A stretch of DNA of 64,000 nt from Bacteroidota bacterium. Its GTDB lineage: Bacteria; Bacteroidota; Bacteroidia; Palsa-965. The stretch spans positions 16,168 through 80,167 of the forward strand of contig PLYR01000066.1 in assembly GCA_003153435.1 (NCBI GenBank), given 5' to 3'. A program made the translations under genes and the position numbers. This document shows positions 1 to 16,021 of this stretch, in pieces. Position 1 is the first letter of the stretch, and each line of letters starts with the position of its first letter. The notes below the pieces were generated by a model that saw only the letters and a program-made list of their open reading frames with translations, made no database searches and had not been told where the DNA came from.

Positions 1-108
1 TTTTTGCTGGATTTGAAGCTTTCTAGGCTGATAAAAATGAACAGAGAGCCATTTGATTTCGGCAGAAGGGGGCCTTTTTCTTGTAATTTTAAGCATTAAT
101 AGGAACGT

Positions 109-849
109 ATGCACGATTTTGCCTCCGACTGGGCCTCCTTATTCAGTCTTTCCTCTCTCATCAGTTTGCTGACACTCACCGTGCTGGAGATTGTACTTGG
201 CGTTGATAACGTTATTTTCATTGCTATCGTTGCCGGCAAACTTCCGAAAGACCAGCAATCCCGTGCAAGGACAATGGGTCTTTCGCTTGCTTTGATTTTC
301 AGAATCGGTTTACTCATATCTATTACCTGGATACTTGGACTGAAGAAACCTTTACTGAGCCTTTGGGGCTTTGATGCAACAGGAAGGGACCTGATCCTTT
401 TTGGAGGAGGAATCTTTTTGCTTATTAAAACAATAGGGGAGATTCTTTCTAAACTCCGCGGTGAAGATGAAGCAGCTTCCCTGAAACTTAAAACAATTTC
501 TCTCTCTGCGGTGATCATGCAGATTGTCTTTATTGATATTATTTTTTCGTTTGATTCGATCCTTACTGCAGTAAGCATGGTTTCGAATGTGCTGATCATG
601 ATTGGTGCTGTCATCGTGGCCATGTTTCTGATGTTGGCATTTTCGGGAAGAGTAAGCGATTTTATAAACCGTCATCCGACCATCAAAATGCTGGCTCTGG
701 CATTCTTACTGATGGTCGCATTTATTCTTTTTATGGATGCTCTTCATTTTAATGTAGCGGCGATCAAACCTTATATCTATGTATCTATGGCTTTTGCTTT
801 AGGCGTGGAACTGCTCAATATGAGGGAACGTAGCGCTAAAGGCAAATAA
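109..849 (+). CDS. TerC family integral membrane protein
   Basis: ORF 246 aa; TerC hallmark LEIVLGVDNVIFIAIVAGKLP and second DIIFSFDSILTAVSMV motif, multiple TM segments. Confidence 0.9.
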   Translation: MHDFASDWASLFSLSSLISLLTLTVLEIVLGVDNVIFIAIVAGKLPKDQQSRARTMGLSLALIFRIGLLISITWILGLKKPLLSLWGFDATGRDLILFGGGIFLLIKTIGEILSKLRGEDEAASLKLKTISLSAVIMQIVFIDIIFSFDSILTAVSMVSNVLIMIGAVIVAMFLMLAFSGRVSDFINRHPTIKMLALAFLLMVAFILFMDALHFNVAAIKPYIYVSMAFALGVELLNMRERSAKGK

Positions 850-1419
850 ATGAAACAGGGTCTGCACTCATTCCTTATTGCATTTTTTTTATACTCCGCA
901 TTCTGTATCTCTGAAGGATATGGACAAAAGTCGCTTCCCAACTACAATGCACTATTTAAACGCGAAGCATTGGAAGGAAAATGGTATCTGGTCATGACAA
1001 ATGCCAGGCACTGGAACTCGGACAAAACAACCAATATCATTTTTGATTTCGTTACCCTGAAATCACCTTCCGGAGAAGCAACAGATCATTTTAACGAAAC
1101 AATTTCCTATCTCGAATCTGGCAAGGCAAAAGAACGGACAAAAGCACTGTACCCAAAAGCAAACAAGAAATTCGGTGAGCAGAAATTGTATAGAGGAAAA
1201 CATTCCCAGGTGCACTGGTATATTGTAGCTACAGCAACTGACAACCATTGGCTGGTTGTTTATCTTCACGGCGGTTTATTCAGGAAAGACGCAATAGAAG
1301 TCATTTCAAGAAACCCCAACCTCGATAAGGAAGACCTGGAACAGATCCGGAAATTATTTGAGGAGAGTTATTTTCTTCAGTCTAAGACCAAGAAGATCAG
1401 GGAAAATATTCAGAAGTAG
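850..1419 (+). CDS. Secreted lipocalin-like protein
   Basis: Signal peptide; GxW-type motif LEGKWYLV near the mature N-terminus and Blc-like C-terminal VISRNPNLDKEDLEQIRKLFEE; ATG immediately follows the upstream TAA. Confidence 0.5.
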   Translation: MKQGLHSFLIAFFLYSAFCISEGYGQKSLPNYNALFKREALEGKWYLVMTNARHWNSDKTTNIIFDFVTLKSPSGEATDHFNETISYLESGKAKERTKALYPKANKKFGEQKLYRGKHSQVHWYIVATATDNHWLVVYLHGGLFRKDAIEVISRNPNLDKEDLEQIRKLFEESYFLQSKTKKIRENIQK

Positions 1420-1451
1420 ATGAATGATATGTCAGATTGTTTTTAGAATCT

Positions 1452-2351
1452 CTAAAAACCATGGAATGTTGTTCCAAGATGCCGGAACCAGAGTTCGGAA
1501 ATAACAAATACAGAGAAAATAATGCTCGCAATACCATTCAGGGTCATAAATGCGAGATTGATCCTACTCAGGTCATGGGGCTTTACAATAAAATGCTGGT
1601 AAATAAGCAGGAGTATAAATATAGACGCTCCGATCCAGTATAATATTCCAAAGCCTGCATAGACTCCAGCCTGAATCACAAGTAAAGCAGAACCTAGGTG
1701 AAGGAATGATGATAATATCAAGGTTCTTTTTTTACCTAACCAAACAGGGATAGATCGCAGATTTTGGGATCGGTCAAATTCTTCATCCTGTAAAGCATAA
1801 ATCATGTCAAATCCGCTGACCCAGCAGAGTACCGCAAATGAATACATCAGTGGCATAATATTGAATTTGCCGGTTACAGCGAGGAATGCTCCGATGGGAG
1901 CGAGGGATAAACCAATACCCAGTATAAGATGACAAAGTGCCGTAAAGCGTTTCGTATAGCTATATCCAAGAATGATTATCAGAGCCACAGGTGATAACTG
2001 AAAACAAATAGGATTAATAAACCAGGTAGTAAGGATGAAGAGGGCACAATTTAAAATTACAAAAAACAGGGCGTTCCTCGTGGAAATAATCCCTGCAGGA
2101 ATTTCACGGATTGCGGTGCGGGGATTCGCTGCATCATATCTGCGGTCGATATACCTGTTAAAACCCATCGCTGCACTTCTGGCAAAAACCATACAGAGAA
2201 TAACCAGCCCGAGCAGAGACCAGGAAAAGCGGGTTGTACTCATTGTTAATGCAAGAAAAAATCCGATCAGTGCAAAAGGAAGGGCAAAAACGGTATGACT
2301 GAACTTGATGAGTGAAAAATAGCTTTTCACCTTTGGAGCAGATTCGTTCAT
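1452..2351 (-). CDS. UbiA-family prenyltransferase (4-hydroxybenzoate polyprenyltransferase-like)
   Basis: NRYIDRRYDAANPRTAIREIPAG (NxxxDxxxD motif), multi-TM, second DMIYALQDEEFD motif. Confidence 0.88.
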   Translation of the reverse strand: MNESAPKVKSYFSLIKFSHTVFALPFALIGFFLALTMSTTRFSWSLLGLVILCMVFARSAAMGFNRYIDRRYDAANPRTAIREIPAGIISTRNALFFVILNCALFILTTWFINPICFQLSPVALIIILGYSYTKRFTALCHLILGIGLSLAPIGAFLAVTGKFNIMPLMYSFAVLCWVSGFDMIYALQDEEFDRSQNLRSIPVWLGKKRTLILSSFLHLGSALLVIQAGVYAGFGILYWIGASIFILLLIYQHFIVKPHDLSRINLAFMTLNGIASIIFSVFVISELWFRHLGTTFHGF

Positions 2352-2626
2352 GAACTGTGAAGGGCTTTAACGATCAGAATCATAATGATGGGAGCTGAAC
2401 AAAGCAAGATGCCAAGAGTCCCCGGCGTAACCTTCTTCTCACTGACCTTATAACGGAGATTCAGGAAAATATAAACATTGGAAGCCAGAAAGCCGATGAG
2501 CCCGCTGAGCATCGCAGCGAAAAGAAAGAACCTAATTGGTTTAACTAGAAAAAGTAAAGTGGTGGTAGCTGCGAGAACGCCGATAATGATCGAACAGGTA
2601 CCCAGAATCCGGGTGATTTTTTCCAT
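2348..2626 (-). CDS. Small hypothetical membrane protein
   Basis: ORF 92 aa with three hydrophobic segments; 4-bp overlap with downstream ubiA-like gene. Confidence 0.6.
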   Translation of the reverse strand: MEKITRILGTCSIIIGVLAATTTLLFLVKPIRFFLFAAMLSGLIGFLASNVYIFLNLRYKVSEKKVTPGTLGILLCSAPIIMILIVKALHSS

Positions 2627-2628
2627 AC

Positions 2629-4785
2629 TCAGTGAACGGCAATTTTTCGGGTTTCGCTTTTCATTCCTTTCCGGTCGAGGGTCAGGAAATAAATACCGCT
2701 TCCCATATTGCTACGGGGTAAAGTTAAGGACTTTGTTCCCTCCGGAACGGTAAAATGTATGATTTCCTTACCCAGCACATCAAAGACCCTGATTCCGGCA
2801 CTACCCTGTATTTCATCAAACGAAACGGTCGTGCTCTCCCCAAAGGGATTAGGCCATATTTCCAGATTTCCTCCTCTGTTAATGATCTCTGAAATGGCTA
2901 ATGGATTACAGAGAGTCATAGCTCCAAAAGCATTTGCTTTACCATATCCCCACTTGTTATCAGGCAGGGAAGATCCTGTATATACATCCTGTGTAGCGGA
3001 GCAGGTAATAGCCGCTTTAATATCGAGATTTGTGGCCCCTGGAGTCTGTTGGAGTAGAAGAGCCGCAATTCCGGTGATAACAGGTGAGGATTGAGAAGTC
3101 CCCCCTCCTACCAGATGCATCCCTCCATAACCAATCTGAGTGGCTGGTGAATAGTATTGCTTCTGAGACATGACCATGCAGGAGATTACATAATCACCGG
3201 TTGCGGCAATGTCTGGTTTTAGCAAGCCAGTTCGGGTTGGCCCGTGACCCGAAGAAGGAGCAAGTCTTCGCGGTCTGAAGATGAAACTGGTATCACACCA
3301 TACCGTATCATTCTCTGCAAGAAAACAATTCTTATTTACATAATTGGCTACACTGATCACATTCGGAGAACACTGAAAACCTGTTTCCATTGTTTTGTCG
3401 AAGTCTGGTAGCTTACCATTTGCAGCCGGAGGATAGATTACAGGAGATGGAAGAGGCCCTGGGAAGAACTGAAAACACCAGGCATCAAAGGTTCCTGTCC
3501 CGGAGGTAATTACCCTAAAATTATCATAAGTAGAATCGGGAGTCACGATATATTCAATGGAATATACATTTCCCTTTTTCTGCTCGAACGACTGGATTAC
3601 AGCCACACGATTGGAATTGCTGAAGATAGTATCATATACAATGACCCCTACCTGAGAGGTGAATGAACGAAAAGGGGTCCTGCCCCTGAATGAATAGGAA
3701 GGACTAACCTGATCGGCTCCGATCGCAAAATTAAGTCCTTTCATAGAAGAGGAGTCACCGTAAATCTGAACATCCATTACCGTATTGCCGTTGGCCGTGT
3801 CGCTGCTGTTAAAACGCATCCAGGTAAAGGAGGAGTCGTTGGTCAGGGAATTTGTTGAATGGTAAGCAATGTCGCCACTGTTACCGGTAGCAGCCACAAA
3901 CACCCTTCCGGGTTGGCCCGTAACAAGACTGTCAATGATTTTTGCTTCAAGATCCGTTCCATCATGCGATCCCATTTCTGATCCCAAACTGCAATTGATG
4001 ACACAAGGTTTCCCAAGGGCTTTTGCTTTGGAGAAAATATATTCAGCCCCGTCTGCAATAGTGGGTCCTGGGTTATTGAAATCCACGGCTACCATAATGA
4101 TATCAGCCTTGGGAGCGACACCTGCATAACGGTTAACAGCTCTTCCGTTTCCCGCTGCTGTTCCTGCCACACGTGTTCCATGACCATAATAAGGGGTATC
4201 CACTTCAGTGCACTTACCACTGTCAATCTGGATGTTCGTCCATTCCTGACCAAAGTTGAAAGGCTGGGGCGTATTCGCTGCAATAGGCATTTTCTGATCC
4301 CAGATATACAGAATTCTGGTTTTGCCAAGACTATCCTTGAAATCAGGATGTGTGAAATCTATACCGGTGTCAATAAACCCGCAGACAATACCTTTACCAT
4401 CATAAGCCTGGGAAAGGGGGGCTGTCCCGTTGTGTACTTTCACAATATTATTCAGATAAACCATCGTGTCATTGAGGGGATGAAGGCGGATACTACCTTG
4501 TTCTATCCGGGTAATGAAAGGTACGGATGCTAACTTAACGAGTTGATTGGCTGGAATAGTTACTGAGGAGATGGTACCTATGTGATATTTGTAGTGACCA
4601 CCACACTGCTCAACGGCCCGCTGAACACCAACAGTGTTACCTTGAATGAGTACACCGATCTGGGTATAATTTTTTGATTTGTTATGAGAGAGGCGGTAGA
4701 GCTCCATAGACATTTTGCTCTGCTGTCCATAGATACAGGAAACGCAGAGTAAAAAGAGAACTGAAAAAGAGATGCGGATATACAT
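2629..4785 (-). CDS. S8 subtilisin-like serine protease with T9SS type A C-terminal sorting domain
   Basis: Catalytic motifs GFIDTGID, GHGTRVAG, GGTSQSSPV; C-terminal LEIWPNPF...VFDVLGKEI...GIYFLTL sorting domain. Confidence 0.93.
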   Translation of the reverse strand: MYIRISFSVLFLLCVSCIYGQQSKMSMELYRLSHNKSKNYTQIGVLIQGNTVGVQRAVEQCGGHYKYHIGTISSVTIPANQLVKLASVPFITRIEQGSIRLHPLNDTMVYLNNIVKVHNGTAPLSQAYDGKGIVCGFIDTGIDFTHPDFKDSLGKTRILYIWDQKMPIAANTPQPFNFGQEWTNIQIDSGKCTEVDTPYYGHGTRVAGTAAGNGRAVNRYAGVAPKADIIMVAVDFNNPGPTIADGAEYIFSKAKALGKPCVINCSLGSEMGSHDGTDLEAKIIDSLVTGQPGRVFVAATGNSGDIAYHSTNSLTNDSSFTWMRFNSSDTANGNTVMDVQIYGDSSSMKGLNFAIGADQVSPSYSFRGRTPFRSFTSQVGVIVYDTIFSNSNRVAVIQSFEQKKGNVYSIEYIVTPDSTYDNFRVITSGTGTFDAWCFQFFPGPLPSPVIYPPAANGKLPDFDKTMETGFQCSPNVISVANYVNKNCFLAENDTVWCDTSFIFRPRRLAPSSGHGPTRTGLLKPDIAATGDYVISCMVMSQKQYYSPATQIGYGGMHLVGGGTSQSSPVITGIAALLLQQTPGATNLDIKAAITCSATQDVYTGSSLPDNKWGYGKANAFGAMTLCNPLAISEIINRGGNLEIWPNPFGESTTVSFDEIQGSAGIRVFDVLGKEIIHFTVPEGTKSLTLPRSNMGSGIYFLTLDRKGMKSETRKIAVH

Positions 4786-4845
4786 AGGTGAATTACCATT
4801 TAAAGGTAGTCAAAAAAATGAAATATTCGTATATTTACTTCCCAC

Positions 4846-6333
4846 ATGCCGAATGAAACTTCCGCTCCTTATACCCTTCGTTTTCTCAATGCTTGCAGGT
4901 CTTTTGGAGACAGGCCCGCCCTTGTTGATGCGGTAAAGTCCTATTCATATTCAGAACTGAAAGGAATAGTCTCTGGAATTATGAATTTGCTGACGGAACG
5001 ATTTCCAGATGAAACCATGATCGGAGTAGTCGATCAGAATGACGTCTATACTTATGCCTCGATTCTGGCCATCAATCTTTGTGGGAAAACACATGTGCCA
5101 TTCAATATCCGATACCCAGAGGAAAAGTTGGTTGTGATAGCTGAAAAAGCTTCGGTAAGGATAATCCTTTCCTCTTATGCTTTTCAGTGTGGGAATTTAC
5201 ACATACTATTGACGCTGGGTATAACAGGAGGCATTTCAGAGGATTTTGTTCCGGTAAAAAAATCTGTTAATCCTGCATATCTTCTTTTTACTTCAGGCAG
5301 CACCGGGGAACCGAAGGGTGTTCCCATTTACAATCATCATCTGAACGCATTCTTTGATTTTTTTCTTGACGGGGGAGTTTTTTATTTTGATGAAAAGGAC
5401 AGATTTCTGCAAGTCTATGAAACAAGCTTCGATGTGTCTGTATTTTCAGCTTTCACACCATTGCTTTCGGGTGGATGTTTTTACCTGCTTCCCAGGAAGA
5501 CTTTTGCCTATCTCGAAATCCCGAAAATACTTTCTTCTTGTGAAATAACAGTGCTGAGTATGGTCCCCTCCATGCTCCATTTTCTTTCTCCCTATTTTAA
5601 ACAGCTAAGATTTGAAAAACTGAGGTATAGTTTTTTCTCCGGCGATAAACTTCTGAATTCCCTATTGCAAGACTGGAGTACCTGTGTACCTCATTCAGTA
5701 ATCGTAAACTGTTATGGACCTACCGAAACAACCATCGTCTGTTCTCACTACCTATGGGATGCACAAAAAGCGGTGAAAGATTCTTTTGAAGGGATCGTAT
5801 CCATAGGAAAGCTTTTCCCTGGAACCAATTATGTTCTGAGAAATGCAAAGGAAATCGGGCCCGGCCTCCTGGAAGGGGAGCTCTGTCTATGCGGCCAACA
5901 AGTAATAGACGCCTATCTGAACAAGGAGAACTCGGAAAAATTTATGGAATGGACGCTAGACGGAAAAGAATGCCGGTTTTATTGCACTGGTGACCGGGTA
6001 AGGGTTAATACCGAGGGAAATCTTTTGTTTCTTGGCAGGACGGATCATCAAATCAAAGCAGGAGGTTATCGGGTGGAACCCGCAGAAATTGAGACCGCTC
6101 TGAGACAGGTGTCAGGAAACAGTCTCTGCGTTGTAATGGGTGTTGATTCGCTGCAAGGTTCTACCCAGGTTGTGGCGTTTGTGGAAGGAAAAGGAGATGA
6201 AACTGAACTTATCAGGAAGTTAAGGAAAAAACTTCCTCCTCACTGCATCCCTTCCCGAATTACCTTTCTTGATCAGCTGCCTTTGAACATCAACGGGAAA
6301 GTGGACCGCCGGGAATTGTGTAAATTTGTTTAA
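4846..6333 (+). CDS. DltA-like amino-acid/acyl adenylating enzyme (AMP-binding)
   Basis: LLFTSGSTGEPKGVPI, FDVSVF, CYGPTETT, YCTGDRV, GRTDHQIKAGGYRVEPAEIE, NINGKVDR adenylation core motifs. Confidence 0.9.
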   Translation: MPNETSAPYTLRFLNACRSFGDRPALVDAVKSYSYSELKGIVSGIMNLLTERFPDETMIGVVDQNDVYTYASILAINLCGKTHVPFNIRYPEEKLVVIAEKASVRIILSSYAFQCGNLHILLTLGITGGISEDFVPVKKSVNPAYLLFTSGSTGEPKGVPIYNHHLNAFFDFFLDGGVFYFDEKDRFLQVYETSFDVSVFSAFTPLLSGGCFYLLPRKTFAYLEIPKILSSCEITVLSMVPSMLHFLSPYFKQLRFEKLRYSFFSGDKLLNSLLQDWSTCVPHSVIVNCYGPTETTIVCSHYLWDAQKAVKDSFEGIVSIGKLFPGTNYVLRNAKEIGPGLLEGELCLCGQQVIDAYLNKENSEKFMEWTLDGKECRFYCTGDRVRVNTEGNLLFLGRTDHQIKAGGYRVEPAEIETALRQVSGNSLCVVMGVDSLQGSTQVVAFVEGKGDETELIRKLRKKLPPHCIPSRITFLDQLPLNINGKVDRRELCKFV

Positions 6334-6360
6334 AGAATCTGCCTTACTTTACAGAAATCC

Positions 6361-6600
6361 ATGACCATGATTCTTGATGAGTTGAATAAAGTGTTTTGCA
6401 GGGTGTTTCATACAAAGGATCTGGTGATCACCCTGCATTCAGATGCATCTTCCCTGGATGGGTGGGATTCTCTGACGCATGTTGCACTTATTTCGGAAAC
6501 GGAGAAGCATTTTAAAATTACTTTTTCATTTAATGAAATGATGCAGTTTCGGAATGTGGGCGATCTGGTGAAAGCCATTGAAAAACACCTACAGCATTAA
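6361..6600 (+). CDS. Acyl/peptidyl carrier protein (DltC-like)
   Basis: 79 aa with LDGWDSLTHVALI phosphopantetheine-Ser motif; directly between adenylase and MBOAT. Confidence 0.88.
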   Translation: MTMILDELNKVFCRVFHTKDLVITLHSDASSLDGWDSLTHVALISETEKHFKITFSFNEMMQFRNVGDLVKAIEKHLQH

Positions 6601-6602
6601 GT

Positions 6603-8033
6603 ATGCATTTTCTCTCTGTTCCCTTCTTTTGTTTTCTTGCAGTGGCAGGGTTTCTTTCCCACTTTCTCCCTTACAAACAAAGGTGGAAACTACTGTTGAT
6701 CCTAAGTCTCTTTTATATCGGGCTATGGAACCCGGGGGCTTTGCTTGTGCTGATCTTTTCTTCCCTGTTTACATTTTATACCGGGCTTCTAATTGCACAA
6801 AATCGGAAATTTCGAGTCTGGGTTTATCTGTTATCAGTGACGATCCAGGTTCTAAGCCTCTTTCTACTTAAGTATGTAGAGTCTGAGAGTACGGGTTTGC
6901 ATTTTTTATTCCATGAAGCGGGATTCCGGCTGGATCTCATCCTCTACGCTGTTGGTTTTTCATTTTACACCTTACAACATATTGGGTATATTACGGAGAT
7001 TTATTATTCAAGAGCAGAGCCGGAAAAGAATCCACTGGATTTTCTTCTCTTCTCCTCCTTTTTCGCCAAATTCTCATCAGGTCCATTGGAGCAGGCTCCG
7101 AAACTAATTGCTCAGTTCAGGAATCCTTCAGCAGATTTGACTCTGATCTATGAAGGAATTCAACGGGTCGTGCTGGGAATCTTCAAAAAAATGGTCCTCG
7201 CCGATCGCCTTGCCCCTTCGGTAGCGCGCGTTTTTGAAGCAGGGCAAGGGCAGGGGAGTGCTGTCACGGTGGCCGGAGCCTGTTTGTTTACAGTTCAGCT
7301 TTATTTTGACTTTTCTGCTTATAGTGATATAGCCATTGGCGCTGCAAAGATTTTTGGGATCAGCCTCACAGAGAATTTTGACAGACCCTTTCTTTCCACC
7401 TCTGTTTCAGAATTCTGGAGGAGGTGGCACATTTCTCTTATCAGCTGGTTCAGCAATTATATTTATTATCCGCTAGTTTTTCGTCTCCGAAGGTATAAAG
7501 GGACAGCTGTCCTGGTTGGAATCCTGGTTACTTTTCTTCTCTCTGGATTCTGGCACGGCCTGGGTTTTACTTTTTTTATCTGGAGCTTACTGCACATTTG
7601 TTTCCTCTGTTTTGAAAGCCTCACTAAAAATATTCGACTGAATGCATCACGAAGTATTCCCGCGTTAATTTACAAGCCCTTCAGTATCCTGATTACATTT
7701 CTGTTGGTCTGTTTCAGTAATCTCTTTTTTCGGGCTCCGGATATTACAGTCGCCAAGCAATTGTTTCGGCAGCTTTACGGCCCACTCTTTCAGGGTAAGG
7801 GATTTATGGAAGGGTTTCTTTCTATCCTTGCCGGAGGTGGTTATCAAGAAGTATTATTCAATTTTTACTTGACACTGATGCTCGTAGGAGGATTTCTAAT
7901 TCTTGAAAAACACCTTTTGAAGCCACTACTTCCAAGCAGGGGACTCTTTCTGCGCACCTTCTTTCTGGTCACACTGATTTTTGTATTCGGAGTATTTAAA
8001 CATGCAGAATATTTTATCTATCAGCAATTCTAA
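6603..8033 (+). CDS. MBOAT family O-acyltransferase (DltB/AlgI-like)
   Basis: Multi-TM; FWRRWHISLISWFSNYIYYPL and catalytic-His LLSGFWHGLGFTFFIW motifs. Confidence 0.92.
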   Translation: MHFLSVPFFCFLAVAGFLSHFLPYKQRWKLLLILSLFYIGLWNPGALLVLIFSSLFTFYTGLLIAQNRKFRVWVYLLSVTIQVLSLFLLKYVESESTGLHFLFHEAGFRLDLILYAVGFSFYTLQHIGYITEIYYSRAEPEKNPLDFLLFSSFFAKFSSGPLEQAPKLIAQFRNPSADLTLIYEGIQRVVLGIFKKMVLADRLAPSVARVFEAGQGQGSAVTVAGACLFTVQLYFDFSAYSDIAIGAAKIFGISLTENFDRPFLSTSVSEFWRRWHISLISWFSNYIYYPLVFRLRRYKGTAVLVGILVTFLLSGFWHGLGFTFFIWSLLHICFLCFESLTKNIRLNASRSIPALIYKPFSILITFLLVCFSNLFFRAPDITVAKQLFRQLYGPLFQGKGFMEGFLSILAGGGYQEVLFNFYLTLMLVGGFLILEKHLLKPLLPSRGLFLRTFFLVTLIFVFGVFKHAEYFIYQQF

Positions 8034-8989
8034 TGTATAAACGAATTATACTTTTCATTGCTCTCCTACTGGTGCTACTCCTTGGCTTGGAAAAGCTTTA
8101 TGACCATTTTCTTCTGAAAAACGTAGACCTCAAAAGTTCCTTCGTTACTTCACAACCGGTCAATGCAGATGTGCTCTTCCTCGGTCCCTGCGAACCCTTA
8201 TGGATGATGAATCCTGCTCTGTTTCAAAAGTATGCCGGTTTGAAAGGCTTTAATCTCTCCACCGTTCATGCCAATTTTGCAGAGAACGAAGGCATGCTAC
8301 ATCTGTATCTGGAGCATAACAAAACTCCTCAATATCTTTTTCTGTATGTTACAACAGAATCAGTAGATGGAGCGTTCAACGTATTCAATTCCTATTCCTT
8401 TTCTCAGTTTGTTTCTGATCCGTTCATAAAAAAGATGATCGAAGCTCAGGACCCGCAATATTACCGGTGGGTGGACTGGCCCTTTATGAAGCATGCATAT
8501 TATAATAGCTTTATTACCTTCAATATGGTTCAAGGCATAAAGCATGGCCTTACCGGAAGAATGATTCCGTATTATCCCGATGGATATGTTCCTCCTCATG
8601 GGATAACCTGGGATATGCGATATGAACATTTTGTAAAGGAATTTCCGCTTGGCAGGCATTTTGAATGGAACACCAGTGAAGTGAAGGCTTTGCAGTCGCT
8701 TCTGGACCTTGCGAAAGCACATGGAATAAAGATAGTACTCTATGAATCCCCTATGCTGAACGAAATCAAGCCATTTATTCTTAATAGGGATGAAATCAAG
8801 CAGAAGATCGCTAAATTCGCCATGCAGAACAAGGTGCCTTATTGGGTGTTTGATACCATGCAAATTTCAAATACCCGATCCTGTTTTTTTTCAATTCTGA
8901 ATACAAACAATAAGGGATCGGCTATCTTTAACAAAACTTTCGCTGATTACTTCCTTCGGGAAGTGAGGCGTGATTCATTGCTTCATTAA
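8033..8989 (+). CDS. DltD/SGNH-like membrane-anchored protein, catalytic residues apparently substituted
   Basis: TAATG overlap with MBOAT; N-terminal TM anchor; ADVLFLGPCEPLWMMNP aligns with ADVLxxGSSxxxxxxNP of SGNH/DltD-like partners; C-terminal NNKGSAIFNKTFADYFL resembles the block-V region. Confidence 0.6.
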   Translation: MYKRIILFIALLLVLLLGLEKLYDHFLLKNVDLKSSFVTSQPVNADVLFLGPCEPLWMMNPALFQKYAGLKGFNLSTVHANFAENEGMLHLYLEHNKTPQYLFLYVTTESVDGAFNVFNSYSFSQFVSDPFIKKMIEAQDPQYYRWVDWPFMKHAYYNSFITFNMVQGIKHGLTGRMIPYYPDGYVPPHGITWDMRYEHFVKEFPLGRHFEWNTSEVKALQSLLDLAKAHGIKIVLYESPMLNEIKPFILNRDEIKQKIAKFAMQNKVPYWVFDTMQISNTRSCFFSILNTNNKGSAIFNKTFADYFLREVRRDSLLH

Positions 8990-9001
8990 ACCTTCGGGAT
9001 T

Positions 9002-10090
9002 ATGATAAAATTCAGATATATATTTCTTTTATCCGCGTTGATGTTTTCTCAGGTAAGCAGGGCTCAGAACCTGAATGCTTATTCGGATAAGGTAACTCAA
9101 TACTTTTATATCTTCGACGATGGAAAATTGGTGGAGGCTGAGTACCTCCCTGTAACCCAATCTGCCGTTGGTGGTAATTGCGTTGCATATGTAGACAATT
9201 CTTCAAACTTTAAAATTTACTACGACGGAAATACAAATGTAGAAGCTGATAACGCCCCAGATAAATTTTTTGCTACTGATAATCTGATCGTATATGATTT
9301 TCAAAAAAGACTGAGTGTATTTGAACGGGGGAGGAGTACTTTACTTACCTACCAGCATGGTATTTACGCTGCAGGCGATAGTATGGTTGCCTTTTATGAC
9401 ACGATATCTTATGCGCTGAAATTCTATAAAGACGGAGTCATCAAAGAAGGAGAAGCCTTGTATGACAAATCACCTCCAAAGAGCCTTCAGGTGGGTGATA
9501 ATATCGCTGCCTATGTAAACTACAATGACCTTTTCAAAGTTTATTACAACGATCGATTATACGATCTCGAGTCTGCAGGACCGACACAATATAAGGCCGG
9601 ATGCAATACAGTAGCTTATATTGACAGATACACCCGTAATTTCAAAGTGTTTTATCATGGCAATCTTCTTCAGTTGGAAAGCTTTCCTCCTTCCAGCTTC
9701 AAAGTGGGCGATGACATTGTTGCTTACATTGATAACACGGGTAGTTTCAAGGTTTTTTGCATGGGACAGCTCTATACAGTTCAAACGTATGAACCTCAAT
9801 TCTTTGATGTAACAGATCACATGATCGTTTTTGGAGACGTGCAGAACTTCAATGTTTTTTACGGCGGCAAGACAACTAAGTTGGAAAGTTATAAGCCGGA
9901 AATTTATCAGATGGATTATAATTCCCTTGCTTATATTGACAGTTTTAACAAGATCCGTTTATTTAGTGATGGAGCAATCAAAGATGTAAGTGGCTCTATT
10001 GTGAACTCCTTCCAGCTTACACGCAATGTACTTATGTACTCAACCGATCTGGAGAGTATGCACTTTTACTGCAACGGAAAAAATTATTAG
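9002..10090 (+). CDS. Secreted repeat protein, probable beta-propeller, co-oriented with the dlt-like cassette
   Basis: Signal peptide MIKFRYIFLLSALMFSQVSRAQ followed by roughly 8-9 repeats of about 35-40 aa of the form VGDNxVAYxDxxxxFKVFYxGxLxxLES. Confidence 0.7.
   Translation: MIKFRYIFLLSALMFSQVSRAQNLNAYSDKVTQYFYIFDDGKLVEAEYLPVTQSAVGGNCVAYVDNSSNFKIYYDGNTNVEADNAPDKFFATDNLIVYDFQKRLSVFERGRSTLLTYQHGIYAAGDSMVAFYDTISYALKFYKDGVIKEGEALYDKSPPKSLQVGDNIAAYVNYNDLFKVYYNDRLYDLESAGPTQYKAGCNTVAYIDRYTRNFKVFYHGNLLQLESFPPSSFKVGDDIVAYIDNTGSFKVFCMGQLYTVQTYEPQFFDVTDHMIVFGDVQNFNVFYGGKTTKLESYKPEIYQMDYNSLAYIDSFNKIRLFSDGAIKDVSGSIVNSFQLTRNVLMYSTDLESMHFYCNGKNY
9155..10087 (+). repeat. Protein-level tandem repeats (VAYIDxxxxFKVFYxGxLxxLES units)
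   Basis: e.g. YKAGCNTVAYIDRYTRNFKVFYHGNLLQLESFPPSS / FKVGDDIVAYIDNTGSFKVFCMGQLYTVQTYEPQF / FDVTDHMIVFGDVQNFNVFYGGKTTKLESYKPEI. Confidence 0.75.
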
Positions 10091-10095
10091 AGGAT

Positions 10096-11217
10096 TTAAT
10101 TGTTCAACATAACCGGCATCACCAGCATCAGAATATCTTCAGCTGCTAGCGGTTGTTCGGCAGGAATAAGGATACCTGCGCGGTTCGGTGCGCTCATTTC
10201 AATATTCACCTCATCGCTGTCCAAGTTAGCTACCATATCCATCAGGAAACGGGAGTTGAAACCAATCTCCATATCCTCTCCGGCATAGGAGCAAGTAAGG
10301 CGTTCGTTGGCTTCATTGGAGTAATCCAGGTCTTCTGCAGAGATGTTTAACTCACTTCCAGCCATTTTCAGACGTACCTGGTGGGTGGTTTTGTTTGCGA
10401 AAATGGATACACGTTTGATGGAGCCCAGGAATGCACTACTGTCAATGGTCAGTTTATTAGGATTAACTTTTGGAATGACTGCATCGTAGTTCGGGTATTT
10501 ACCATCTATCAGGCGACAAATAAGGCGGGAAGACCCGAATACAAATTGTGCATTTGTGGCATTGTATTCAGCCTTTACAGTTCCTCCAGCAGCACCGAGA
10601 TTATTCTTGAGCAGATTTAGAGGTTTCTTAGGAAGAATAAATGAAGCAGGGGCAGCGGTCTTAATGTCGCTGCGACGGTATCTCACCAGACGGTGAGCAT
10701 CTGTAGCTACAAAAGTTGCTCCTTCGGGAGAAAACTGAACAAAGACTCCCGACATTACCGGACGGAGTTCATCATTTCCGGTGGCAAAAATGGTTTTGTT
10801 AATAGCAGAGAGAAGCGCTTCGGAATCAATTTCTACAGACGCTCCAGCTTCTACTGTTGGAGCTTTGGGATATTCGTCTCCGTTGTGACCTGTCACTTTG
10901 TATTTTCCATAATCAGATGAAATTTCAATACTGAATTTCTTTAGATCAACGGAAAAAGTAAGAGGTTGTTCAGGGAATGCTTTTAAGGTATCAATGAGAA
11001 GTTTAGCGGGGATCGCAATGACTCCTGAATCTTTGGATTCAACATTCATTGTGGTAGTCATGGTTGTTTCTAAGTCTGATGCAGAAATGGTGAGGTCCTT
11101 CCCGTTAACTTCAAACAAAAAGTTGTCCAGAATAGGAAGTGTATTTGAACTGTTCAGAACCCCATTCAGCGATAAGAGATTTTTCAGCAGTGTGGAACTG
11201 GAAACAATAAATTTCAT
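10096..11217 (-). CDS. dnaN: DNA polymerase III beta subunit (sliding clamp)
   Basis: MKFIVSSSTLLKNLLSLNGVLNSSNTLPILDNFLFE start and C-terminal VMPVMLNN; typical DnaN throughout. Confidence 0.97.
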   Translation of the reverse strand: MKFIVSSSTLLKNLLSLNGVLNSSNTLPILDNFLFEVNGKDLTISASDLETTMTTTMNVESKDSGVIAIPAKLLIDTLKAFPEQPLTFSVDLKKFSIEISSDYGKYKVTGHNGDEYPKAPTVEAGASVEIDSEALLSAINKTIFATGNDELRPVMSGVFVQFSPEGATFVATDAHRLVRYRRSDIKTAAPASFILPKKPLNLLKNNLGAAGGTVKAEYNATNAQFVFGSSRLICRLIDGKYPNYDAVIPKVNPNKLTIDSSAFLGSIKRVSIFANKTTHQVRLKMAGSELNISAEDLDYSNEANERLTCSYAGEDMEIGFNSRFLMDMVANLDSDEVNIEMSAPNRAGILIPAEQPLAAEDILMLVMPVMLNN

Positions 11218-11331
11218 AAGGTGTTGTATTTGATTAATTTGACCTTCATCCAGTTTATACCGGAATGCGAGAGCCTACAAAATTAAATTTATAGTGCAGA
11301 TATGAGGGTAGTATGCAGCCATAGTTTTAAG

Positions 11332-12372
11332 CTATTTTTTAACACCCGGACCTTTATTTGCAAAGTATTCAATATCAGTGAGTAGCTTTCCAAAAACATA
11401 ATATTGGGTGACTACAAATTCATCCTTGTTGATAAGTGTATACATCCTGTCCATATCAAATTTTTCCGGCTTCCCTTTGGCATCCAAAGCTTCCCGGTGA
11501 GGCTCCATTCCGAAGAATCTCAGGTTTGTTACTTTATCATTCCTGTCGGTAATAGTCATTTCATAAAGTGGAGTGGAGCTTAAGATGGAATCTTTCCTAA
11601 AGGTCTGCATATCGTTCAGAAATGTCTCGAAACCAACCCCTTGAAAGTAAGAGAGGTATTGCTTCACCGCTAATGTGTCGATATTCGGATAGTTAGAATT
11701 GTTTTTCAGAAAATGAACTTCAAACAGATTGGGGCGGGAAGATTTGACTTCAAAGGAATTTCCGGCAGCACCTATAAATTGAAGTTTAACAGATTTAATA
11801 TTTGGAGGGAAATAGGAGAATGCTGTTTTATCCCTCCATTCGGCTTCGCTAGTCACATAAACAGGAGTCAGGTATCTGGTTTGACCCTCAATACACATGA
11901 CGAAAGGACGGGACGAATTTTGTTTGGTTTCTGGGTTCACGAGTAGCATATAAGTGCCTTCATCATCCGGAGTTGCTCCTCCGATATAATACATTCTCAC
12001 CAGTTTATCCCCCTGGTATAATTCTATCTTCGTAGCCCCTGAAGCGAGGTTCTTGATTACATTTTCCTGGGCCTGGACCCCCACCATACTTTTGATGGAA
12101 AGGTTTTTGACTACAAACAGAAGGTTAAAGATCCCGTCATTTCTCGCTTTGAATTTCTTGTTTACGGTCCAGTTTCCCTTACTTACTTTTTCTAGTGTAA
12201 CCTGATGCCCTCCCTTATCTGCAAGAAAAATTTTGGTGATCGATGCGGTATCTGCAAAAGCAAAATCACGGAGTTCTTTAGGAACAGTGGTACCGGTATC
12301 CTTCTTCAAAAGATAGATGGTAATGCATGCCAACAACAATACTATCAATAAGGCAATCTGATTTTTTTTCAT
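11332..12372 (-). CDS. DUF4340-like protein
   Basis: N-terminal TM, FAFADTASITKIFLADKGGHQVTLEK; directly downstream of gldG-like gene. Confidence 0.6.
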   Translation of the reverse strand: MKKNQIALLIVLLLACITIYLLKKDTGTTVPKELRDFAFADTASITKIFLADKGGHQVTLEKVSKGNWTVNKKFKARNDGIFNLLFVVKNLSIKSMVGVQAQENVIKNLASGATKIELYQGDKLVRMYYIGGATPDDEGTYMLLVNPETKQNSSRPFVMCIEGQTRYLTPVYVTSEAEWRDKTAFSYFPPNIKSVKLQFIGAAGNSFEVKSSRPNLFEVHFLKNNSNYPNIDTLAVKQYLSYFQGVGFETFLNDMQTFRKDSILSSTPLYEMTITDRNDKVTNLRFFGMEPHREALDAKGKPEKFDMDRMYTLINKDEFVVTQYYVFGKLLTDIEYFANKGPGVKK

Positions 12373-12433
12373 TGTAGGCTTTGATTTAGATAAAGGTTAT
12401 CAGGGGGATGGAGGCGGGGAAAGCATTGCTAAA

Positions 12434-14167
12434 TTACGAACTATATTTCTTTTTACGGATATAATAGCGGGAGATTCCGAAAATAAGGATGAGGAGAATC
12501 GGAACACAGGTATTCACGATTTTCCACTTTAGCTCTTCACTTCTGACTTTCTTCTTATCCAAAAGACGCAACTTGACCTCCCGGGTCCTCACTGAGATCA
12601 GACCCGAGTCGTCACAGAGATAGTTCATACAGTTGAGTAGGAAATTCTTGTTTCCAAAGAGCTGGTTCATATATTTATCCCAGCCCAGTGGAACAATATC
12701 ACCTCGATCTACTTCATTCCGGATAATATCCCCATCGGATACAACAATCATCTTTGTTGGAATTCCTTGTTCACGGAACCCGATTATCTTGCTCTCCCGG
12801 ATGGCAGTAGAAATCCGGTCTTTGTAATTCGATTCAAAAGCTCCTTCCAGTAAGACAGCCACTGGTTGGAATGAATTCCGGAAAAGTTTTTCATTGGGTC
12901 TCATATTCACCATTTCCAGTGAAACGCGGCTGGGTGCTGTAGCTAAACGTGTATATCGGGAAGAGTTTAGCAAAATGGTTTTAGATATTCCCTTGGCTGC
13001 TATCGTGTCTATTCCGCTTACAAATTGGAACTCAATCAGATCGAGATTTTTTACGATCGGATGTTTATTGGTTGGTGAAGGTCCGATAAGGGGAAAGAAG
13101 ATCCAAGGCTCCATCTGAATCCGGGGCTGGGTCCCTGCAATTGCTTTGTTGATTGGGATGCGAGCACATTGCAGGTCCATCAACAGGTTTGCATTCAGTC
13201 TGACCCCGTATTTGAAGAACATATCATCGAGGTTTAGTTTGTTCGGAATGGATAAGGTGTAACCATATCGTCTGAGACTGTCCATTGGAGTGAAAGCAGG
13301 ATCAACAAGCCACAATACCTTTCCTCCATACATGATAAACTGGTCAATAAGAAACTTATCCTTCTCTGAAAAAGCACTATCAGGCTTTGCGATAATGATG
13401 GCTTTATATTTAGGAATGAGGTTAGTGGTATGACCAAGGGTGTCCATAAGGGAATGTACATTCCCATTGATAAGGGTTCGGTCGACACGGTAATATTCGG
13501 CGAGTGAACGTGTGATATCCTTGGTATGAAGAGAGTCGAGCTCTCCATGACCTTCGATGAAAGCAATTTTGGGCTTAAGATCTACTTTTAGTTTACGGAT
13601 GACGTTGGAGAGTTCATATTCCAATCCTTCAATGGAAGCATTTAGTTGTTCCTCAGAACCAATGCCCTTTTGAGTTTTCAGGAGTTGTACAGGGAGTTCC
13701 TTACCCTTGTAGGAAACTAATGCTCCGGGAAACACATACTGTTGCTTGACTCCTGTTTCATCGTTCGATTCTAGGTTGGTGGGTTCAATGCCTTTATCAT
13801 ACAACTGTTTGAAAAGTTCCTTTTGCTGTTTCTTGTCAGGGTTAGCTGTCGGATTGATGAATTCATACTCGATATTGTGAGAATAAGCCCTGAATTCATT
13901 CAGCATTTCTTTGGTCTCGTTTTTTAATCTTACGAAGCCGGAAGGGAAGTCTCCGTCCAGGTAAATCTTGAAATACACTGCATCATTCAGGTTTTTCAGG
14001 AGGTCCTTGGTAACAGGACTGAGTGTATAGCGTTTTTCTTCGGTAAGGTCGAAGCGTTTGAAAACGAATGAGGAGATGAAATTAATAAGCACAATAATCA
14101 CCAGAACCAACATCAGGTTCACCAGATCTCTGCGTTTTTTATTTAGTTTCTTTTGTGCCATTACCAT
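12434..14167 (-). CDS. gldG: Gliding motility-associated ABC transporter substrate-binding protein GldG
   Basis: FDLTEEKRYTLSPVTKDLL, IAFIEGHGELDSLHTKDI, C-terminal TM; downstream of gldF. Start may be the internal ATG at 14161. Confidence 0.88.
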   Translation of the reverse strand: MVMAQKKLNKKRRDLVNLMLVLVIIVLINFISSFVFKRFDLTEEKRYTLSPVTKDLLKNLNDAVYFKIYLDGDFPSGFVRLKNETKEMLNEFRAYSHNIEYEFINPTANPDKKQQKELFKQLYDKGIEPTNLESNDETGVKQQYVFPGALVSYKGKELPVQLLKTQKGIGSEEQLNASIEGLEYELSNVIRKLKVDLKPKIAFIEGHGELDSLHTKDITRSLAEYYRVDRTLINGNVHSLMDTLGHTTNLIPKYKAIIIAKPDSAFSEKDKFLIDQFIMYGGKVLWLVDPAFTPMDSLRRYGYTLSIPNKLNLDDMFFKYGVRLNANLLMDLQCARIPINKAIAGTQPRIQMEPWIFFPLIGPSPTNKHPIVKNLDLIEFQFVSGIDTIAAKGISKTILLNSSRYTRLATAPSRVSLEMVNMRPNEKLFRNSFQPVAVLLEGAFESNYKDRISTAIRESKIIGFREQGIPTKMIVVSDGDIIRNEVDRGDIVPLGWDKYMNQLFGNKNFLLNCMNYLCDDSGLISVRTREVKLRLLDKKKVRSEELKWKIVNTCVPILLILIFGISRYYIRKKKYSS

Positions 14168-14892
14168 TTCCGGCTTTCAACCACCGTTCTTGTTGCAAAG
14201 AGAAAAATCCCTATCAGGCTAATAAAATAAAGCATATCCCGGGTATCAATCACTCCACGGCTCATTGATACATAGTGGGTGTTAATGCTCATGGAAAGAA
14301 GGAATGTATCTGCTTTGTTAAAAAAATCAAGGGAGCTGAGGTTGTCGAATCCAATATAACAGAATGCACAGAAAGCTACAGCCATCACGAAAGAGATGAT
14401 CTGATTGTCACTCAGGGCGGACGCAAAAATGCCGATAGCGACGAATGCCCCTCCAAGGAAGAGTAAACCGATGTAAGATCCCCACATCCCTCCAGTATCA
14501 ATATTGCCTGGAGGACTTCCCAACTGATTCACTGAGTAATAATAGACCAGCGTAGGAAGTAGTGAAAACATGACTAGGATGAGGCCGGCTAGAAATTTTG
14601 CAAATACAATCTGTATATCCAGCAGTGGGCGAGTGAGGAGTAATTCAATGGTTCCGCTCTTCCTTTCTTCTGCAAATGACCGCATTGTGATTGCCGGGAT
14701 AAGGAATAAAAAGACCCAGGGAGCAATTTCAAAGAGGGGATTGATATTCGCATAGCCGTTATGAAGTACATTGGAGTCTACAGAAAAAACCCACATGAAA
14801 AGTCCGAGGACCAGCAGGAAGACTACTATAACCACATAGCCGATCAGTGAACTTAAAAAGCTTTTGATCTCTTTCTTTAGGAGTGCGTACAT
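14161..14892 (-). CDS. gldF: Gliding motility-associated ABC transporter permease GldF
   Basis: MYALLKKEIKSFLSSLIGYVVI, AITMRSFAEERKSGTIELLLTRP motif, six TM-like segments. Confidence 0.9.
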   Translation of the reverse strand: MYALLKKEIKSFLSSLIGYVVIVVFLLVLGLFMWVFSVDSNVLHNGYANINPLFEIAPWVFLFLIPAITMRSFAEERKSGTIELLLTRPLLDIQIVFAKFLAGLILVMFSLLPTLVYYYSVNQLGSPPGNIDTGGMWGSYIGLLFLGGAFVAIGIFASALSDNQIISFVMAVAFCAFCYIGFDNLSSLDFFNKADTFLLSMSINTHYVSMSRGVIDTRDMLYFISLIGIFLFATRTVVESRKW

Positions 14893-14944
14893 AATTCAGC
14901 GCAAATTTAGCATTAAAAGCCGAAATAGATATATTTACACTCAC

Positions 14945-16021
14945 GTGGAAAAAGACAGCTCCCAACGCATATTCGGATTAGATATCCTGCGGACCCTTGC
15001 AATTATTCTTGTCCTCCTCGGGCATAGCTCGGGTATCATCTGTCCTGCATTTCCTGCATTTCCTTGGATTCCAATACCCGATGGAGTAGACCTGTTCTTT
15101 GTGCTGAGTGGATTTCTGGTAGGAGGGATCCTGATGGATGGGATCAGGAGCGATGGCCAATGGAGTTTTACGGATTTGCGTCAATTTATACGGAGAAGAT
15201 GGTTTCGCACACTCCCGAATTATTTTCTCTTCTTATTCATTAATATTATTCTCGTCAACCAGGGGGTCATTTTCGGGGAGCTTAACCGGCACCTAATTAC
15301 CTTCTTTTTCTTTCTCCAGAATTTTCACATTACCTATTTTGATCTGTTTACGGAGTCCTGGAGCCTTTCCGTGGAAGAGTGGTTTTATCTCTCCTTTCCG
15401 ATCCTATGCTTTCTGTCCTTAAAGTTAAGGAAGGTGAAGTTTAGCTCCGTTTCATTACCATTAATCATTAGTGGTTATTTACTCTTCCCCCTTCTTTACC
15501 GCATCCTAACCGCAGGAAGTATAACTACTGATGAGCACTATGAGCTTTTCTTCCGGAAGTTAGTGCTGACCAGACTTGATAGCATAGGTTTTGGAATTCT
15601 GGCGGCATGGTTCAAACGCTGGCGCCCTGTATTTTGGCAGCGTTTTCGGCTTGTGGCTTTCTTTACCGGGATTGTTCTTTTGTTCTTTCTTTGCCGCATG
15701 CATACCATGCCAGCGACTTTTTATCTGAAAACACTTCATCTGACGCTTCTTCCCCTCTCTATAGCCATATTGCTGCCAGCCTTGGATAGTGTGAAAACGG
15801 AGAAGTTGCCGGGTAAACCCTTTGCTTTTATCTCCCGGATTTCCTATTCAATGTATTTCTGCAACAGCCTGATATTTCAGATTTATTACCATTACTTTCA
15901 TCCTGAAACAACAATAATTCGTTTAGTATCTTTTGCAGGGTGCTGGTTCGCAATCATTTTGATATCCTGGTTGAACTTCAGCTTCTTTGAACGTCCGCTT
16001 ACCGGGCTCCGGGATAAGTGA
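14945..16021 (+). CDS. Acyltransferase family 3 (OafA/YrhL-like) membrane protein
   Basis: GLDILRTLAIILVLLGHSSG...FFVLSGFLVGGIL; GTG start at 14945 preferred over the ORF-track start at 14864, which overlaps gldF. Confidence 0.85.
   Translation: MEKDSSQRIFGLDILRTLAIILVLLGHSSGIICPAFPAFPWIPIPDGVDLFFVLSGFLVGGILMDGIRSDGQWSFTDLRQFIRRRWFRTLPNYFLFLFINIILVNQGVIFGELNRHLITFFFFLQNFHITYFDLFTESWSLSVEEWFYLSFPILCFLSLKLRKVKFSSVSLPLIISGYLLFPLLYRILTAGSITTDEHYELFFRKLVLTRLDSIGFGILAAWFKRWRPVFWQRFRLVAFFTGIVLLFFLCRMHTMPATFYLKTLHLTLLPLSIAILLPALDSVKTEKLPGKPFAFISRISYSMYFCNSLIFQIYYHYFHPETTIIRLVSFAGCWFAIILISWLNFSFFERPLTGLRDK

Follow-up and report, generated by a model that had tools for sequence, protein, structure and literature searches.

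Organisation of the locus

The window is a stretch of 64,000 nt from Bacteroidota bacterium (Palsa-965; assembly GCA_003153435.1, contig PLYR01000066.1, positions 16,168-80,167 of the forward strand). It includes a cassette of five co-oriented genes, the subject of this report, which encode an adenylation enzyme, a carrier protein (ACP), an MBOAT, an SGNH-fold partner of the MBOAT and an exported beta-propeller (Table 1). The spacings between the genes are 27, 2, -1 (a 1-bp overlap) and 12 bp, and each of the five open reading frames (ORFs) has an ATG start and an in-frame stop. The nearest neighbours are a divergent S8 subtilase gene, at a distance of 60 bp on the upstream side, and, 5 bp downstream, a convergent dnaN-like gene.

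Table 1. Coordinates of the cassette genes, key residues and divergent subtilase gene in the window.
Feature	Position	Strand	Remarks
S8 subtilase with type IX secretion tail	2629..4785	-	PF00082 1.3e-36, PF18962 9.6e-09
Adenylation enzyme, 495 aa	4846..6333	+	substrate-Asp 5431-5433 (FDVS); catalytic Lys 6298-6300 (NGKVD)
Carrier protein (ACP), 79 aa	6361..6600	+	phosphopantetheine Ser37 in WDSL, 6469-6471
MBOAT, 476 aa	6603..8033	+	catalytic His318, 7554-7556
MBOAT C-terminal FIYQQF (FXYXXF acyl-shuttle motif)	8013..8030	+	Tyr473 at 8019-8021; read from sequence
SGNH-fold MBOAT partner, GPC clade, 318 aa	8033..8989	+	N-terminal membrane helix
SGNH partner residues	Cys53 8189-8191, His79 8267-8269, Glu109 8357-8359	+	
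SGNH partner residues	Glu238 8744-8746, Ser287 8891-8893, Asn290 8900-8902	+	
Exported 10-bladed beta-propeller, 362 aa	9002..10090	+	predicted signal-peptide cleavage before Gln22 (9065-9067)

In Pfam searches the adenylation enzyme matched AMP-binding (PF00501, 1.1e-45) and AMP-binding_C (PF13193, 8.8e-09), the ACP matched PP-binding (PF00550, 9.4e-08), the MBOAT matched PF03062 (8.2e-22), and the fifth protein matched PF21734, '10-bladed beta propeller' (2.8e-94). An earlier, sequence-only reading had described five co-oriented genes that overlap or lie no more than 27 bp apart, and this is borne out by the ORF calls, the spacing and the Pfam matches. The core of this gene order recurs in other families (see below), hence the arrangement is not due to chance. 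The fourth product had been called DltD-like; its SGNH fold is upheld by homology, but the Pfam search of the window proteins gave no match for it and hence none to the DltD family PF04914.

The MBOAT and its relation to Dlt and PatA/PatB systems

MBOAT-SGNH pairs modify the envelopes of many bacteria, and the Vibrio Alm and Bordetella dra systems are Dlt-derived and transfer amino acids to a Gram-negative envelope polymer. DltB structures match the window MBOAT at 1e-24, and the DltB model scores it at 8.2e-49, below the curated cut-off. The protein has both PatA/PatB-type features, namely catalytic His318 and the C-terminal FIYQQF, the latter overlooked in the sequence-only reading. The FXYXXF hexapeptide is located on DltX in the Dlt pathway, where it serves acyl shuttling, and on the MBOAT itself in PatA, where its Tyr is acetylated (PMC12148441).

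In a tree of 55 MBOAT sequences, the genus clade (support 100/100) sits within a 27-member clade (100/99) that includes the window MBOAT, and two Dlt-operon MBOATs are separated from that clade at 100/100. Genes for the 27 members mostly adjoin SGNH genes, and several lie in apparent polysaccharide clusters. A second operon in the same genome (L023 8166-12415, G000:C22) encodes an ACP, a DltD that matches PF04914 at 4.5e-46, a DltX-like peptide, an MBOAT and an adenylation enzyme. The DltX-like peptide is a 50-residue frame between the DltD and MBOAT genes (10847-10999, minus strand) and ends in FVYQQF, whereas the shuttle motif of the window cassette is fused to the MBOAT C-terminus. A similar Dlt-type operon is present in G009 (L138).

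It is very unlikely that the cassette is an ordinary DltABCD/DltX member that D-alanylates an envelope polymer. It does share with that system an adenylation enzyme, a carrier protein, an MBOAT, an SGNH-fold membrane protein and a hexapeptide Tyr shuttle, and its first and third products match the DltA (1.8e-62) and DltB models. Both scores are, however, far below the curated cut-offs, the MBOAT belongs to another clade, the shuttle is fused and no DltX is encoded, the SGNH partner is of a non-PF04914 type with Cys for Ser and no catalytic His, and in a sister species FkbH replaces the adenylation enzyme (see below). Moreover, a distinct Dlt-type operon that includes a DltX-like peptide is present elsewhere in the genome. 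Thus, the close kinship to Dlt that had been supposed was not sustained, and the cassette follows a Dlt-like logic without being a Dlt operon.

With PatA/PatB and kin, the cassette shares an MBOAT with a C-terminal FXYXXF, an adjacent membrane-anchored SGNH-fold partner and a Gram-negative envelope. The donor of PatA is acetyl-CoA, PatA/PatB carries out peptidoglycan O-acetylation, and MBOAT/SGNH pathways other than Dlt are stated to lack a carrier protein (PMC12148441). The cassette differs in that an adenylation enzyme (or FkbH) together with an ACP would supply the acyl group, and in that Ser-Asp-His is replaced. Since the MBOAT itself ends in FIYQQF and falls outside the DltB-type clade, the cassette is predicted to unite a Dlt-like donor side with a PatA-like transfer side.

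Replaced active site of the SGNH-fold partner

A hidden Markov model (HMM) built from 18 relatives, with no genus member included, matched the window SGNH protein at 8.9e-44 and aligned it and the other three genus proteins with no gap in the catalytic blocks. At position 53, Ser in 18/18 relatives is replaced by Cys in 4/4 genus proteins, and at position 290, His in 18/18 relatives is replaced by Asn in 4/4. Position 287 is Asp or Asn in the relatives and Ser in the genus, and position 79 is mostly Gly in the relatives and His in the genus.

The proteins with the replaced site, hereafter the GPC set, number 22 and comprise the 4 genus proteins and 18 members from other families. Cys53, Pro52 and Glu109 are present in 22/22, His79 and Glu238 in 21/22, and His at position 290 in 0/22. 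The set forms a single clade with support 100/100. The final step of MBOAT-SGNH pathways is carried by an active-site Ser (PMC12148441); this PatA/PatB-type Ser nucleophile and the catalytic His are absent from all 22 GPC proteins, each of which has Cys in place of the Ser. The GPC centre is therefore read as a rebuilt Cys-His(-Glu) site, as a prediction from these alignments. The sequence-only reading had referred to a 'GPCE' protein and missed the replaced catalytic residues behind that label. No paper on SGNH partners with a catalytic cysteine was found, nor were plasmid relatives of the SGNH protein.

The same replacements would fit a relay in which the SGNH partner is a pseudoenzyme that docks the MBOAT and the acceptor, the transfer being completed by the acyl-Tyr or by another protein: none of the triad residues Ser, Asp and His is retained, nor is the block II Gly. 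Such a role is considered rather unlikely, since a docking shell would need less constraint than is seen: Cys occupies the exact site of the nucleophile in 22/22, a newly acquired His is near-invariant and a Glu is invariant. Within the genus, moreover, the SGNH protein is no less conserved (58-61% identity) than the MBOAT (51-60%).

GPC-type SGNH genes also occur without a neighbouring MBOAT gene (L185, L190, L192, L194 and L195); in L190 the gene is preceded by one for a Big_5-domain protein.

Conservation of the core across families

Homologues of the SGNH protein were sought class-wide in 395 genomes, and strong ones were found in other families. The order MBOAT-SGNH-propeller is kept in 4/4 genus genomes; a contig end cuts the MBOAT gene of G002, and any donor genes would lie beyond it. 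The order ACP-MBOAT-GPC is found in five families (f1, f74, f83, f120 and f67), and in three of the five an adenylation gene adjoins the core. Complete A-ACP-MBOAT-SGNH sets, in which A is the adenylation enzyme, occur in f74 (G567, G461, G518 and G697, with the ACP of G697 found by translation) and f120 (G698). An ACP-MBOAT-SGNH order without adjacent A was found in f74 (G631), f83 (G496) and f67 (G485, G537, G562), and each of these five genomes encodes an A homologue elsewhere (E 2.4e-73 to 2.1e-103). An A homologue with E below 1e-70, beside the core or elsewhere, was found in 11 of the 14 genomes searched. A gene of 343-404 aa beside the f67 cores was considered as an alternative loader and rejected, as its product begins with a signal-peptide-like segment and matches no family. 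Thus, conservation extends to the ACP-MBOAT-SGNH core but not to the fifth gene; the refuting outcome named in the sequence-only reading, a lack of joint conservation, applies to the five genes as a set and not to the core.

The adenylation enzyme and exchange of the loading genes

The Asp of amino-acid adenylation domains that binds the substrate alpha-amino group is kept in the window enzyme. Its pocket letters, DVFSFSCIVK, were assigned from motif positions that we take from GrsA numbering, without structural superposition. They are identical in the L014 enzyme and differ at 1-2 positions in four f74 cassette enzymes. They differ from those of the L184 enzyme and of the Dlt-operon enzyme of the same genome; the latter difference stands beside the DltA model match, which is under its curated cut-off. 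The position of the A and ACP genes next to the MBOAT gene argues for a carrier-bound donor over acyl-CoA.

In the sister species G001, an ACP and an FkbH gene at locus L015 take the place of the window's A and ACP genes; the subtilase and MBOAT genes on either side are the same as in the window. The FkbH protein matches PF21211 (4.9e-62) and TIGR01686 (2.9e-78). Loader and ACP seem to have changed together, because the L015 ACP is 36% identical to that of the window, as against 51, 59 and 68% for the MBOAT, SGNH protein and propeller, respectively. A close A homologue was not found in G001 (84% complete); the best match, 5.9e-44, lies in a 1326-aa frame. Misassembly is unlikely to explain the exchange, as L015 lies on a single contig with conserved flanks. 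A 270-bp gap in this locus has no open frame of note. The in-place replacement of A by FkbH was seen in one instance, L015. FkbH proteins load glyceryl from 1,3-bisphosphoglycerate onto ACPs in polyketide pathways (PMC7489565). L015 shares with these tetronate and methoxymalonyl-ACP routes the pairing of an FkbH homologue with an ACP. In those routes the carrier supplies polyketide synthesis (PMC7489565), whereas the L015 carrier adjoins an MBOAT-SGNH pair. Papers joining FkbH with O-antigen were not found in the library searched.

Two further FkbH-ACP pairs lie near MBOAT genes, in G003 and G006 (L043 2207-6886 and L046 7587-13174); one is accompanied by MaoC-like and SDR-like genes and the other is in a polysaccharide-type cluster.

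The resemblance to natural-product genes raises the question of whether the cassette makes and exports a small molecule, such as an amino acid or peptide that the MBOAT helps to tailor. The adenylation enzyme is like those of nonribosomal peptide synthetases, its closest solved chain being linear gramicidin synthetase A, and natural-product clusters contain FkbH and stand-alone ACPs (PMC7489565). Among the genes within positions 1-16000, however, there is no condensation, ketosynthase, thioesterase or dedicated exporter gene near the cassette, and the MBOAT terminates in an envelope-acylation shuttle motif; a small-molecule product is accordingly judged highly improbable.

The fifth gene

The earlier description of the fifth product as a secreted repeat protein is kept as to predicted export and recast as to fold, a predicted propeller. 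Residues 20-362 match PF21734 with 316.8 bits against a cut-off of 27, and the AlphaFold2 model is all-beta (predicted local distance difference test, pLDDT, 89.3; predicted template modelling score 0.83) and matches PDB propellers by fold. The predicted mature start, Gln22, is invariant in 7 homologues and agrees with the Q-rule of Bacteroidetes (PMC5837995); hence the protein is probably exported. A Pfam search found no type IX tail on it.

With 67-70% identity, the propeller is the best conserved cassette protein within the genus. It is present in 69/395 class genomes and lies next to an MBOAT or SGNH gene in 0/25 loci outside the genus. The fifth slot is occupied in f74 by an exported protein of ~208 aa with no detectable similarity to the propeller, and in f120 a histidine kinase gene follows the core. 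The propeller was therefore rejected as a conserved partner of the core, and the view of the fifth gene as a dedicated part had to be given up: the propeller is a genus-level addition, linked to the cassette only in the genus.

Neighbouring genes and the acceptor

In f74 a subtilase of the same type is found in the same divergent position, an association that does not assign it to the pathway. Across f74 and the genus, both the divergent subtilase and a UbiA-like gene, so named for its likeness to the window gene, hold their place. Ser-type sister MBOAT-SGNH pairs are located in apparent polysaccharide clusters (L046, L048, L053 and L054).

Ser-type pairs also lie directly upstream of PorV-like and C25 (PorU-like) type IX secretion genes in L044, L045, L047 and L049 (and L042); Pfam matches were checked for L045 only. 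The GPC core of f67 (L186, L187, L189, L193) is flanked by a gene for a PKD protein of ~1465 aa, the type IX tail of which was checked by Pfam in L187, and by a glutamine-amidotransferase-like gene of 632-649 aa. The PorV-PorU-like neighbours, the tailed subtilase and the tailed PKD protein of f67 hint, by association only, at a link to type IX secretion. An AT3-type acyltransferase gene (PF01757, 2.2e-22) is located ~5 kb downstream of the cassette (window 14864-16018, plus strand), with no tie to it seen.

Proposed mechanism

The genes, their families and order, the conserved core, the shuttle motif and the residue replacements are read directly from the sequences, and of these the residue counts, the GPC clade and the gene orders are the firmest; the chemical steps, Cys catalysis, the amino acid, the acceptor and the role of the propeller are inferred. 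It appears moderately probable that the cassette encodes a transmembrane acyl relay that is fed by a carrier and has a rebuilt SGNH active site. The adenylation enzyme would spend ATP to activate an alpha-amino acid and load it onto the ACP. The MBOAT would then carry the aminoacyl group across the inner membrane to Tyr473 of its own FIYQQF tail, from which the membrane-anchored SGNH-fold partner would receive it and hand it to a periplasmic acceptor, for which a hydroxyl or amine group on a surface glycan is the likeliest candidate. In the partner, Cys53 may serve as the nucleophile and His79 as the base, with Glu109 or Glu238, in place of Ser-Asp-His. The propeller would be an exported accessory peculiar to the lineage, with acceptor recognition as its probable task. 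The earlier proposal that an activated amino acid on a carrier passes via the MBOAT/SGNH pair to an envelope acceptor is retained as the best reading, the core genes being conserved together.

Several observations count against the proposed relay. The pocket letters gave no confident specificity match by which the amino acid could be named. The GPC cassettes themselves lie outside polysaccharide clusters, so the suggestion of a glycan acceptor rests on the sister clades. The SGNH model, built from four sequences, is poor (pLDDT 52) and cannot place Cys53, His79 and the Glu residues; its fold matches, to GDSL-like hydrolases and DltD, thus count as supporting only. The loss of Asp and His could equally mean a pseudoenzyme, and GPC proteins without an adjacent MBOAT are encoded in G671, G455, G607, G585 and G627.

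A broader form of the carrier-fed relay is speculative and, in our estimation, unlikely: a Bacteroidia-wide relay of aminoacyl or glyceryl groups from ACP to Tyr to a Cys thioester on a Cys-His-Glu SGNH fold. In it the ACP-MBOAT-GPC core would stay constant while lineages swap loaders and exported end-proteins, and its target might be the glycan to which type IX-secreted proteins are anchored.

The GPC SGNH group is widespread, and the cassette is best described, on predicted functions, as a carrier-fed variant of known MBOAT-SGNH machinery. The replaced SGNH residues and the FkbH exchange go beyond the sequence-only reading, which missed both. A monophyletic set that has Cys for Ser, lacks the His and is apparently carrier-fed provides a natural test of what the final step of envelope acylation requires, and the in-place exchange of the adenylation enzyme for FkbH predicts that, within one genus, the same core would transfer a different acyl group.

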